NCBI GenBank assembly: GCA_944391625.1
Contig: CALXUG010000001.1
Span: forward strand, 1-64,000
Reading direction: 5' to 3'
DNA: 64,000 bases
Source: an uncultured Clostridia bacterium
GTDB lineage: Bacteria; Bacillota; Peptococcia; Peptococcales; Peptococcaceae
Shown: positions 11,067 through 48,860 of the stretch, one piece after another
Layout: every line of letters starts with the position of its first letter
Numbering within the stretch: position 1 is the stretch's first letter
Notes under the pieces: generated by a model
Told to the model about the DNA's origin: nothing
What the model saw: only the letters and a program-made list of their open reading frames with translations
The model's database searches: none
Translations under genes and position numbers: made by a program

Positions 11067-11089
11067 CTTAAATCCCCCTAAATTTTTTA

Positions 11090-11130
11090 AAACTAAACTA
11101 AAACTAACTAAAACTAACTAAAACTAACTA
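11090..11130 (-). repeat. 10-bp tandem repeat in the modA leader
   Basis: Three exact copies of AAACTAACTA (11101-11130) are preceded by a degenerate copy. The unit length equals one helical turn, and the array covers the first transcribed bases of modA, just after the -10 hexamer. It could be a multi-site operator or a slippage-prone repeat. Confidence 0.85.
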
Positions 11131-37170: not shown

Positions 37171-37300
37171 TGTATTAAACTTCATTGATTATCTATCATA
37201 ACTGCATAAATCTTTGTGTATCAATCGCCTATCAGGATACCATCAACCGGGAATTTGGTGTTTACGACAGCATCCGTGACAACTTCCCCCAAATATGCTG

Positions 37301-37415
37301 CATCATCGGGAGACTGTTTGTTGCCTGCCCTCGTACCCGACCAGAAAAGCGTCGGGTAAACTGAGGAAAAGGCAAAGGTAGGACAAGCCGATCACTCAAT
37401 CTTTCACACGAAACA
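37301..37415. repeat. Dispersed repeat module with degenerate parS
   Basis: The first 31 bases are identical to 47085-47115. Next come a hairpin (TACCCGAC/GTCGGGTA at 37334-37358) and an end segment (37360-37393) similar to 47361-47393. Last, 37400-37415 matches 13 of 16 parS positions. The two ends can pair (TTGCCT with AGGCAA, CCTC with GAGG). Confidence 0.75.
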
Positions 37416-37442
37416 ATGCTCATCACAGTTAAAAACAAATAC

Positions 37443-45248: not shown

Positions 45249-45279
45249 GAATAAAATGGAAATAATTGGAGATGATACT

Positions 45280-46815
45280 ATGCTGGCGCAGTTGAAAAGT
45301 GCAACATTATTGGGATTATCGGTTCATTTGGTAGAAATTGAGGTGGATGCCGCCGGAGGGCTGCCATCCTGGGATATTGTAGGATTGCCGGATACTGCGG
45401 TAAAGGAGAGCAAAGAACGGGTTCGCACTGCTATCAAAAATGCCGGTTACGACGTTCCGCCCCGGCGGATTGTGGTAAATCTGGCGCCGGCCTATCTGCG
45501 CAAAGAAGGCCCCAGCTTTGACCTGGCTATCGCCATCGCCATTCTGGCTGTCACCGAACAGCTTCAATGCAGCCAGCTGGATGATTATCTGCTGCTGGGA
45601 GAATTGAGTTTGGACGGTTCTCTCCGTCCTGTAAAGGGCATTTTGCCAATCTCTTTAGAATATTGCAGCACCGGCTACACCATGCTGGTGCCTGCTGCCA
45701 ATCAGGAGGAAAGTGCCATTGGCGGTACTGTTACTTATGGATTTAGACACTTGCGGGATGTGGTGCACTTTTTAGAAAACCCGCAGCAGTATACGCCGGT
45801 GCAGGTAGCGCCGCCGGTATTTTCCCCGTCGGCCCAACTGTACAGCCAGCACGACTTTGCCCAAATCCGCGGTCAGGCTGAAGCCAAACGGGCCTTGGAA
45901 ATCGCTGCTGCCGGTAATCACAATATTTTAATGGTAGGCTCGCCCGGCTCAGGCAAAACCATGCTGTCTCAGGCTTTGCCCAGTATTTTACCGCCGCTGA
46001 CATTGACCGAAAGCCTTTCTCTCAGCAAAATATACAGTATCGCAGGTCTGCTGCCGCCCAACCAGCCGCTGGTGCAGGAACGGCCATTCCGCGCGCCCCA
46101 TCACAGCGCTTCCACCGCCAGCATCATCGGCGGCGGCAGGATTCCCCATCCCGGTGAGGTATCCTTATCCCACCATGGCGTGCTATTTTTAGATGAATTT
46201 CCCGAATATCGGCGGGAGGTTCTGGAAGCGCTGCGCCAGCCCATAGAAGATGGCGAAGTGACTGTATCCCGGGTGCAGGCTCAAATCACCTTTCCCTGTC
46301 ATTTTTTGCTGGCGGCATCCATGAATCCCTGCCCCTGCGGTTACTATAACGATCCCCATCGGGAATGCACCTGCACACCGGGACAGATGCAAAAATACCG
46401 CAATCGGGTATCCGGCCCGTTGCTGGACCGATTTGATTTACAACTGGAAGTGGTGCCGGTCACCTTTCAGGATTTGCATCAGACCAATCTGGAAGAACCG
46501 TCCAGCCAAATCCGGCAGCGGGTCATCCAGGCGCGGCAGATACAGCAGCAGCGGTTTGCCGACAGCGCCACCATCCACAATGGCGCCATGACAGTGGAGC
46601 AGATTCAGCTCCATTGCCAGTTGGATAATCCAAGCCGCACTTTTTTAGAACAGGCCTTTCAACGGCTGGGGCTCAGCGCCCGCGCCCACAACCGCATCTT
46701 AAAAGTAGCCCGCACCATCGCTGATCTGGCCCAATCAGAACAAATCCAGCTGCCCCATTTGGCAGAAGCCATTCAGTATCGTACTCTGGACAAAAAATTA
46801 TGGATGGAATTTTAA
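45280..46815 (+). CDS. YifB/ComM-family Mg-chelatase-like AAA+ ATPase
   Basis: The 511-residue protein has the N-terminal ChlI-type domain (DIVGLPDTAVKESKERVR), Walker A MLVGSPGSGKTMLSQAL, the HHSAS segment, Walker B VLFLDEFPEY, arginine-containing ILDRFDLQLEV and the C-terminal SARAHNRILKVARTIADL. ComM aids branch migration in transformation in other bacteria; in Firmicutes the role is less defined. TTGGAG precedes the ATG. It is divergent from addB. Confidence 0.9.
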   Translation: MLAQLKSATLLGLSVHLVEIEVDAAGGLPSWDIVGLPDTAVKESKERVRTAIKNAGYDVPPRRIVVNLAPAYLRKEGPSFDLAIAIAILAVTEQLQCSQLDDYLLLGELSLDGSLRPVKGILPISLEYCSTGYTMLVPAANQEESAIGGTVTYGFRHLRDVVHFLENPQQYTPVQVAPPVFSPSAQLYSQHDFAQIRGQAEAKRALEIAAAGNHNILMVGSPGSGKTMLSQALPSILPPLTLTESLSLSKIYSIAGLLPPNQPLVQERPFRAPHHSASTASIIGGGRIPHPGEVSLSHHGVLFLDEFPEYRREVLEALRQPIEDGEVTVSRVQAQITFPCHFLLAASMNPCPCGYYNDPHRECTCTPGQMQKYRNRVSGPLLDRFDLQLEVVPVTFQDLHQTNLEEPSSQIRQRVIQARQIQQQRFADSATIHNGAMTVEQIQLHCQLDNPSRTFLEQAFQRLGLSARAHNRILKVARTIADLAQSEQIQLPHLAEAIQYRTLDKKLWMEF

Positions 46816-46933
46816 ATATGTACAAGCCAGATTTCTATTGTTTGTAATGTTCCATCGTTGGGAGATTGCTTGTTGCCTGTCCTTCTGTCATGGACAAAAT
46901 CTTGCTGTTTGCGATTTATTTGGTTAATAACGA

Positions 46934-46949
46934 TGTTTCACGTGAAACA
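46934..46949. promoter_or_regulatory. parS site 1
   Basis: TGTTTCACGTGAAACA matches the Bacillus parS consensus at all 16 positions. ParB/Spo0J loads here to recruit SMC and position the origin region. Confidence 0.93.
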
Positions 46950-47049
46950 ATTTTATTTTGTAATGTTCCATCATCGGGAGATTATTTGTTGACTATCCTT
47001 CTGTTATGGACAAAATCTTGTTGTTTGTAATTTATTTGGTTAATAACGA

Positions 47050-47065
47050 TGTTTCACGTGAAACA
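47050..47065. promoter_or_regulatory. parS site 2
   Basis: The same perfect 16-mer lies exactly 116 bp from site 1 in the next repeat unit. Confidence 0.93.
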
Positions 47066-47084
47066 ATTTTGTTTTGTAATGTTC

Positions 47085-47395
47085 CATCATCGGGAGACTG
47101 TTTGTTGCCTGCCCTCCTTCACCGGACAGTTGCTTGTCAGTCTGCTTCACTATGGACTGTGTCCAGTTCAGCAAGACAGACTGCGCATCTGTCCGTTTCA
47201 ATGTCGACAACGGCAACAAAACATCTCCCTGACTTGTGTGCATAAGGCTGGCCTAGCCTTTGCCAAAATTCCGAATTGGGATGGATTATCGCGCCAAATG
47301 TCTGAACCGAAGTGGACGAAGTCCAAACTGAGGCAGACATTTTAGCGATTGTCCAGCGCCACTGAGGGATGAGCAAAGATAGGACAGCCGACCGT
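47085..47395. repeat. Hairpin-rich repeat module
   Basis: It begins with the 31 bases shared with 37301-37331. It contains two large imperfect hairpins (47123-47195 and 47283-47354), each with a TGGAC-nnn-GTCCA heart, and ends with the segment similar to 37360-37393. It has no parS of its own. Confidence 0.75.
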
Positions 47396-47413
47396 ACTCC
47401 TTACTGGGCACAC

Positions 47414-47447
47414 TAAAAAACCAGACCCCCTAAGAGGGCCTGGTTTG
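47414..47447 (-). terminator. Terminator of the stalk-domain gene
   Basis: AAACCAGGCCC and GGGTCTGGTTT pair on the minus strand, followed by TTTAG. Confidence 0.75.
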
Positions 47448-47483: not shown

Positions 47484-48860
47484 TTATGCTGCTGCTTTTG
47501 CCAGTTCTTCATTGGCCATCTGCAGCAAATCAATCACAGTTTCACCGGATGCCGGTGCGCCCTGTGGTTTTTCTGTTGTCGCAGAATAAGTCATATCACC
47601 GGACAAATTCATGGTCATCATACCTTCCATGTTCATGGACATATCCATGGTCACATCATTGCCCTTCTGAGCTGCTTTCATTGTCATCAGCGGCGCAGTA
47701 CCCATGTATACGCTCATTTCCTGTGCATAACCGATTACTTTGTCGCCATCCATATTCAAAGTCATGCGCATGGTGCTGACAACACCTTCCGTTTCATCTT
47801 TTATAGTAGAAACGTAATTATTGCCGGATTTCTGGAAGTTTTTATCCTGATACTGTTCGATGGTCTGCATCAACACAGCGCAGCCTGCTGCATCATTAAC
47901 CGGCATGGTATCCAGCAGCGCCATCATGTAATCTTCATAGCTACCGCTGTTAACACCTTCCAGCAGGGCCTGCAGATCCATACCGGTTCCGGCCAGTAAT
48001 GCATTCAGATCCATCATATACCAAGCGTTGCCATCCATATCGGCCATGCCGAACAATTCAGATTTCATATACATTTTACCAGTTTTGATATTCATGATCA
48101 CATCCATATCAAACTCTTTCATCTGCGCCATCATGGTTTCGTCTTCCTCTGTCCATTCACCCGCTTTTTCCAAAGCAGCTTTCAATTCGTCCAGATTCAA
48201 TGTCATTGCCATATTCATGCTGGCTACTTCTGCAGAATTAATGCCATCAATCACCATATCGCCAGAAACAGGAATCATTACAGCATCTTCCCCGCTGCCG
48301 TCAGCCATTTTCATGTCAAATTTCATGGTGCCTTTTACAGCCATAGGCGCTTTGCTGTAAGCTTCACTGTAAGTCATGAATTTATCCATTAAAGTAAACT
48401 GACCTTTTAAGCTTTCCTGCAATGCAGCTTTATCCAACATTACAACAGTTTTGCTGTTGCTGTCCCAGCCAACAGTTGCACCCAAAGACTGGGCAGCAAA
48501 ACGAACCGGCACATAAGTGCGGCCATCCCGCACAAAGGATGCGGCATCAGTGCTGACAGCTTTGTCATTGACAGTAATTTCTGTGTTGCCAATTACAAAA
48601 GATACCTTGGTATCTCCTTTTTCTGCTGTAATGGTGTTGCTGGCCTGGTCATAGGCAACATCAGCATTTAAAGCTTCAAATACAGCACGAAACGGAACAT
48701 ACACACGATTATCTTCCATTACAGGAGCTGCATCTGTAAATTGCAGCGCATCGCCATTCAGCTGAACCCCGATACCGGCTTCATCAGCAAAAGCTGCCGC
48801 CGGCAAAAATGCAAACGCCAACAAAACCATCAGTAAACATAGTTGTTTCATCTTTCTCAT
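47484..48860 (-). CDS. Exported copper-amine-oxidase-N (stalk) domain protein
   Basis: The 458-residue protein has a signal peptide (MKQLCLLMVLLAFAFLPAAA, cleaved near FADE). Two copper-amine-oxidase N-terminal units follow (VYVPFRAVFEALNADVAYD and TYVPVRFAAQSLGATVGWD). These are surface 'stalk' domains without enzyme activity. The remaining 300 residues are unusually rich in Met and Asp (DMKMADGSGED, FGMADMDGNAWYMMDL) and resemble DUF6612-like lipoprotein domains; function is unknown. GGAGG precedes the ATG. Confidence 0.8.
   Translation of the reverse strand: MRKMKQLCLLMVLLAFAFLPAAAFADEAGIGVQLNGDALQFTDAAPVMEDNRVYVPFRAVFEALNADVAYDQASNTITAEKGDTKVSFVIGNTEITVNDKAVSTDAASFVRDGRTYVPVRFAAQSLGATVGWDSNSKTVVMLDKAALQESLKGQFTLMDKFMTYSEAYSKAPMAVKGTMKFDMKMADGSGEDAVMIPVSGDMVIDGINSAEVASMNMAMTLNLDELKAALEKAGEWTEEDETMMAQMKEFDMDVIMNIKTGKMYMKSELFGMADMDGNAWYMMDLNALLAGTGMDLQALLEGVNSGSYEDYMMALLDTMPVNDAAGCAVLMQTIEQYQDKNFQKSGNNYVSTIKDETEGVVSTMRMTLNMDGDKVIGYAQEMSVYMGTAPLMTMKAAQKGNDVTMDMSMNMEGMMTMNLSGDMTYSATTEKPQGAPASGETVIDLLQMANEELAKAAA

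Follow-up and report, generated by a model that had tools for sequence, protein, structure and literature searches.

Numerous perfect parS sites, most of them borne by a dispersed mosaic repeat, in the genome of an uncultured member of the Peptococcaceae

The stretch of DNA analysed here (the window, 64,000 nucleotides) belongs to a genome of the Peptococcaceae, in a genus near UBA7185 whose relatives include several ruminant-gut MAGs. Between two convergent genes it carries two perfect parS sites within a tandem repeat, and a second copy of the dispersed repeat to which they belong lies some distance upstream:

37295..37417, + strand: second repeat copy in the window, lacking parS and ending in a degenerate parS-like right end
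45268..46815, + strand: yifB-like gene (Mg chelatase/ChlI family), convergent left neighbour; start codon provisional
46841..47115, + strand: tandem array, period 116, 2.4 copies, 89% matches (TRF)
46920..46933, + strand: left box TTGGTTAATAACGA, conserved, a constant distance ahead of parS
46934..46949, no strand assigned: perfect parS site 1, palindrome TGTTTCACGTGAAACA (pattern search, no mismatch)
47036..47049, + strand: left box TTGGTTAATAACGA, copy 2
47050..47065, no strand assigned: perfect parS site 2, TGTTTCACGTGAAACA (pattern search, no mismatch)
47066..47400, + strand: body of the dispersed mosaic repeat (downstream limit about 47400)
47484..48860, - strand: gene with a Cu_amine_oxidN1 ('stalk') domain, convergent right neighbour

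The two sites are exactly where the original prediction had placed them, 116 bp apart, one unit of a repeat that TRF confirms as real, and they lie in the gap between the yifB-like and stalk genes, which is a convergent one; their perfect match to the 16-bp palindrome also bears out their identification as canonical parS. A perfect 16-mer is expected by chance about 0.0007 times per 3 Mb, and chance can therefore be set aside for one such site; the pair, though, does not amount to two independent events, since the second is the first copied with the repeat unit. In the upstream copy without parS, the degenerate right end (TCTTTCACACGAAACA, 37400-37415) has 3 mismatches to parS. Elsewhere in the window, at 11088-11130, TAAAACTAAC is repeated in a short tandem of 4.2 copies.

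A pattern search across the window's own assembly, the check that the prediction had called for, returned 69 perfect copies; with up to 2 mismatches allowed, 76 sites were found, against 1 for a reversed control pattern. This assembly (G000) is a draft of 2.97 Mb in 74 unordered contigs, and the sequence read around sites (1.73 of 2.97 Mb) includes the surroundings of all 69. Thirteen perfect sites fall on origin contigs: 11 on C27, packed around a parA-parB operon (C27:26.2-34.0 kb), and 2 on C38, which carries mnmE-mnmG-rsmG-noc (mnmE, mnmG and rsmG named by eye from translations), the usual origin neighbourhood. The prediction was to be given up if the genome held no parB, and parB is present, beside parA on C27. 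The other 56 sites are not concentrated near the origin and form 52 loci on 39 contigs, which sum to 2.17 of 2.97 Mb and over which even density fits (chi-square simulation, p = 0.83). An apparent deficit on C1, C2 and C5 together (2 loci against 8.7 expected) was picked post hoc and is discounted, the overall test being non-significant. One of the perfect parS, at C21:5096, lies outside the repeat and within an ORF of about 250 aa.

The sites also reach the terminus region. A dif-like sequence, ACTTCGTATAATCATTGTTATGTAAACT (C9:7455-7482), adjoins hslVU and rpsB-tsf-pyrH-frr (named from translations) and probably marks the terminus, because GC skew and gene strand flip exactly there; a perfect parS (C9:68040) is 60.6 kb away. 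It could be argued that the dispersal is only apparent, an ordinary origin-proximal cluster broken up by a 74-contig draft, given that the contigs are unorderable and that one sister species, G008, is origin-biased. Against this stand the even density over the 39 contigs and the site 61 kb from dif, and we hold this to be the least probable of the explanations weighed here.

Chromosomal parS normally cluster near the origin (PMC5815017), and the premise that most of them are single and dispersed had therefore reversed the norm. Nor do the window's sites form a self-contained local array: they make up a single locus among some 52 dispersed ones, the majority of which are repeat-borne. The amplification extends across the genome. 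We reject the local reading, in which the pair would be a loading spot of a special kind, as tandem pairs of the same spacing (114-117 bp) occur at four other loci, namely C4:48026/48141, C16:19109/19226 and, with an imperfect second site, C4:81111/81225 (2 mismatches) and C37:12399/12515 (1 mismatch), and single copies are far commoner. Nothing supports a placement of the window near the origin.

A MITE-like mosaic repeat of 250-500 bp, dispersed in more than 40 copies, accounts for most dispersed parS in the window's species: they are its left end. This end is laid out as TTTGGTTAATAAC-N2-parS-ATTTTGTTTGCAATGCTCCATCGTCGGGAGACTGTTTGTTGCC, and the right end of the repeat, TCTTTCACAC(G/T/A/C)AAACA, is parS-like in inverse orientation, such that the two are similar as inverted repeats (TGTTTCACGTGAAACA on the left; TGTTTAGTGTGAAAGA on the right, read in reverse). 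Short, non-coding and bounded by terminal inverted repeats (parS on the left, TCTTTCACACNAAACA on the right, 250-500 bp apart), the element resembles a MITE, albeit with imperfect inverted similarity of its ends; neither a transposase nor a target-site duplication was identified. Internal modules vary between copies; about 30-66 stretches similar to the body were found in roughly half of the genome, and the left box-parS composite occurs 49 times in this genome. A second dispersed repeat (GTTAGCCGNAAATCGGCTAAC; TCCATGTTAGCCGNAAATCGGCTAACACAAATAGGTAATGAAA) abuts some parS and is mosaic with the first, for example at C22:44488, C30:8274 and C45:11068. Placement is intergenic, no coding capacity was seen, and orientation has no clear relation to replication direction. 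Neither the plasmid nor the phage collection searched with the repeat gave a match, and we accordingly reject an origin from either; Rfam held no match of note (one sub-threshold hit).

Such properties raise the question of whether the palindrome is simply an RNA or terminator feature of a structured intergenic repeat of the BOX, RUP or ERIC kind, its identity with parS being secondary. Consistent with this, convergent intergenic regions are enriched (15/41 vs 156/792, p = 0.016), the sequence after parS is T-rich, and the predicted RNA fold of 46900-47440 is far more stable than those of shuffled sequences (z = -7.4). A hairpin, however, has no need of the invariant central ACGT, sister species have the identical 16-mer at sites whose surroundings are unrelated and not part of a repeat, and the genus-specific excess of parS coincides with intact parAB, all of which makes this account highly improbable.

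The 16 bp of parS are conserved far beyond the rest of the repeat. Copies were located by the core GGGAGACTGTTTGTTGCC alone, to avoid bias towards parS, in large-contig stretches fetched around parS sites and in contigs C28-C64, fetched regardless. Among the 41 core-found copies whose slot has at most 3 mismatches, parS is perfect in 35, and the slot is mismatched at 13/656 positions (2.0%), compared with 214/1956 (10.9%) in the right flank (Fisher p = 3e-15) and 127/652 (19.5%) in the left flank (Fisher p = 2e-27); these p values overstate independence, the copies being related, while the contrast itself is made within the same copies. Other copies have lost the slot altogether, and the state of parS is therefore close to all-or-nothing. 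The right end, located through the flank on its inner side, departs from its consensus at 92/624 positions (about 15%), and transposition rules or a need for intact ends thus fail to explain the invariance of parS. Nor does recent spread explain a slot that is near-invariant beside varying flanks and a varying other end; judged from these sequences, parS itself appears, most simply, to be under selection as parS.

In the genomes sampled, so high a number of sites is confined to the genus. In a phylum survey of 398 genomes, each at least 90% complete, no genome outside the genus had more than 7 perfect parS; class members outside the genus had at most 2, and the family outside it had 0-4 with one mismatch allowed. 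Congeners carry 3-37 sites with at most 1 mismatch (genomes 68-99% complete). The highest count quoted in PMC5815017 is 22 (S. coelicolor, L. innocua), and in the literature searched, with subscription journals outside its scope, perfect parS were nowhere described as carried by a repeat or as spread over a whole chromosome.

Sister species have 17-33 perfect parS (33 in G005, 30 in G008) without the repeat unit, with totals of 37, 31 and 20 in three of them when one mismatch is allowed, and the left-box composite TTGGTTA-N7-parS has 0 occurrences in 7 congeners. Where flanks were read, sister sites are single parS in unique sequence: in the stretches read outside the parAB region, 0/51 flanks in G005 and 0/18 in G008 are repeated elsewhere, vs 91/110 in the window's genome. 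Around the single parS of G005 and G008 there is a trend towards an extended palindrome, TTTGCAAW-parS-WTTGCAAA, the surroundings being unrelated in other respects. The sister sites lean somewhat towards the origin; G008 is strongly origin-biased, with 20/30 sites on the parAB contig and others beside genes resembling purA, dnaX, rsmA and glmU (from translations). Outside the origin region, positions are hardly shared between species (2 candidate shared loci), although the comparison used our own large-contig stretches chosen around parS and was thus biased towards finding shared positions; we therefore discard positional conservation, of which there is almost none there, and conclude that no individual site is essential. 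On this sequence comparison, made between draft genomes with one genome per species, the parS excess is a genus trait that the repeat alone does not explain, since the sisters have it without the repeat; the even, repeat-borne spread is the state of the window's species rather than of the genus, given the origin bias of G008.

The main rival to a role in the host is a selfish, MITE-like repeat with a perfect parS as its (captured) left end, ParB serving the element or binding as a by-product that the host tolerates. ParB might, for example, act in the placement or protection of such an element, or enable it to transpose while loaded with ParB. The inverted-similar ends, the intergenic placement without visible coding capacity, the mosaic joins, the fast positional turnover and the confinement of the repeat unit to the window's species are all in line with it. 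It would account for the vehicle, but not for the sisters, which share the dispersed excess without this repeat; the element's other end, moreover, is not kept, and composite sites stand isolated outside the long repeat (on C54 and C56). We regard this explanation as unlikely, though deserving of serious consideration.

Which protein reads the sites may be judged from specificity residues. The ParB of this genome has the makeup of a parS-type ParB (R173, G201, CTPase motif GERR, HTH and dimerisation domains). ParB and Noc are paralogues, both conserved in the genus; in the genus members read, Noc carries Q173, K179 and R201 and ParB R173/G201. By mutational analysis, the set Q173, K179 and R201 recognises A1 and C6 of the NBS (PMC7383237), and interpreted in this light ParB is inferred to be parS-specific and Noc NBS-specific. 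Because its residues are of the parS type and those of Noc of the NBS type, ParB is the expected reader of the dispersed parS. A third protein with a ParB domain (C7:81811-82110) is encoded directly behind a rho-like gene; it has 512 aa, its N-terminal part is long and repetitive, and it has the look of a ParB from a mobile element and not of the chromosomal one. SMC, ScpA and ScpB were not located in the 1.73 of 2.97 Mb of sequence read.

In Bacillus, Noc sites are typically dispersed, and a Noc of reverted specificity might read the dispersed parS here, its nucleoid-occlusion network having relocated to them. This genome does encode a true Noc (on C38; NCBIfam TIGR04285, 328 bits vs a cut-off of 315), NBS are scarce, and H or Q replaces K at position 184, which would make relaxed specificity possible. 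All genus Noc read nevertheless keep the NBS set of residues (PMC7383237), on which ground we disfavour Noc as the reader, and the dispersed motif is parS (G1/A6) and not the NBS (A1, C6: TATTTCCCGGGAAATA). NBS-like sites with at most 2 mismatches number 11, 4 of them in one cluster. This cluster (C42:1911-2163) packs its four palindromes (TATTTTCCGGGAAATA and variants) into 250 bp of the gap between two genes; it is probably a Noc-binding cluster, almost the sole dense NBS-like group in the genome, and its existence also counts against Noc as reader of parS. We consider such a relocated network very improbable.

ParB nucleates at parS, closes into a CTP-dependent clamp, slides and recruits SMC. 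Placing the window in this framework, we give a modest preference to the view that its two sites are part of a chromosome-wide ParB nucleation set of a ParABS/SMC system, with occupancy and host benefit as inferred elements. ParB-CTP would load at each perfect parS, close into a clamp and slide along neighbouring DNA, and ParB, and thereby SMC and ParA tethering, would be seeded not only at the origin but on both arms too. Selection for chromosome-wide seeding would keep each surviving parS perfect, and in the window's species the repeat would be the vehicle that makes new parS, with positions turning over between species. The host might gain SMC loading along the whole chromosome, tethering of the nucleoid or, in a genome with few Noc sites, occlusion by ParB; nucleoid retention of ParB has been proposed for half-parS (PMC10419367). 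Against chromosome-wide seeding, some repeat copies have lost parS, non-origin positions are hardly conserved between species, and extra mid-arm parS are costly in Caulobacter (PMC5815017). The stronger claim of an effectively polycentric centromere in this genus, in which ParB-CTP clamps and SMC would load at about 50-70 selected perfect parS on both arms and, in one species, the repeat would have been recruited to write new sites, is one we put forward tentatively, with the balance somewhat against it.

How centromere regions come to grow in the course of evolution has been described as an open question (PMC5815017). This genus lies far past the known limit of parS number, and its species form a series in which three genomes, each 93% complete or more, have between 17 and 69 perfect sites; the series also varies in spread, from origin-biased to even, and in vehicle, from single to repeat-borne. 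The genus is thereby a natural test case for the function of a chromosome-wide bacterial centromere, and could show how numerous SMC/ParB loading sites are accommodated in one chromosome and how the binding sites of a cellular machine spread by repeats.

Among known systems, the closest are the origin ParABS clusters of B. subtilis (Spo0J-parS), S. coelicolor and L. innocua, with which this genome shares the identical 16-bp parS, a parA-parB ringed by parS and a parS-type ParB. It differs from them in its total of 69 perfect sites, which is threefold the top figure given in PMC5815017, and in that 56 of these are off the origin contigs, reach the terminus region and are mostly repeat-borne. 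With the Noc-NBS network of Bacillus it has in common many dispersed 16-bp palindromes of the ParB/Noc class and the presence of noc, whereas the dispersed motif here is parS, NBS-like sites are few and the Noc residues are NBS-type. In the half-parS system, ParB is found at hundreds of nucleoid places off the origin (PMC10419367), a likeness that depends here on predicted occupancy; there the sites are 7-bp halves of high natural frequency, while full perfect 16-bp palindromes, which could nucleate clamps, are found here. Finally, repeats of the BOX, RUP, ERIC and Correia type are dispersed intergenic mosaic repeats or MITEs. The element described here resembles them in being 250-500 bp long, modular, intergenic and strongly structured, with terminal inverted similarity and no transposase inside, and departs from them in matching no family (Rfam, plasmids, phages) and in having as one end an invariant, functional-looking centromere site.
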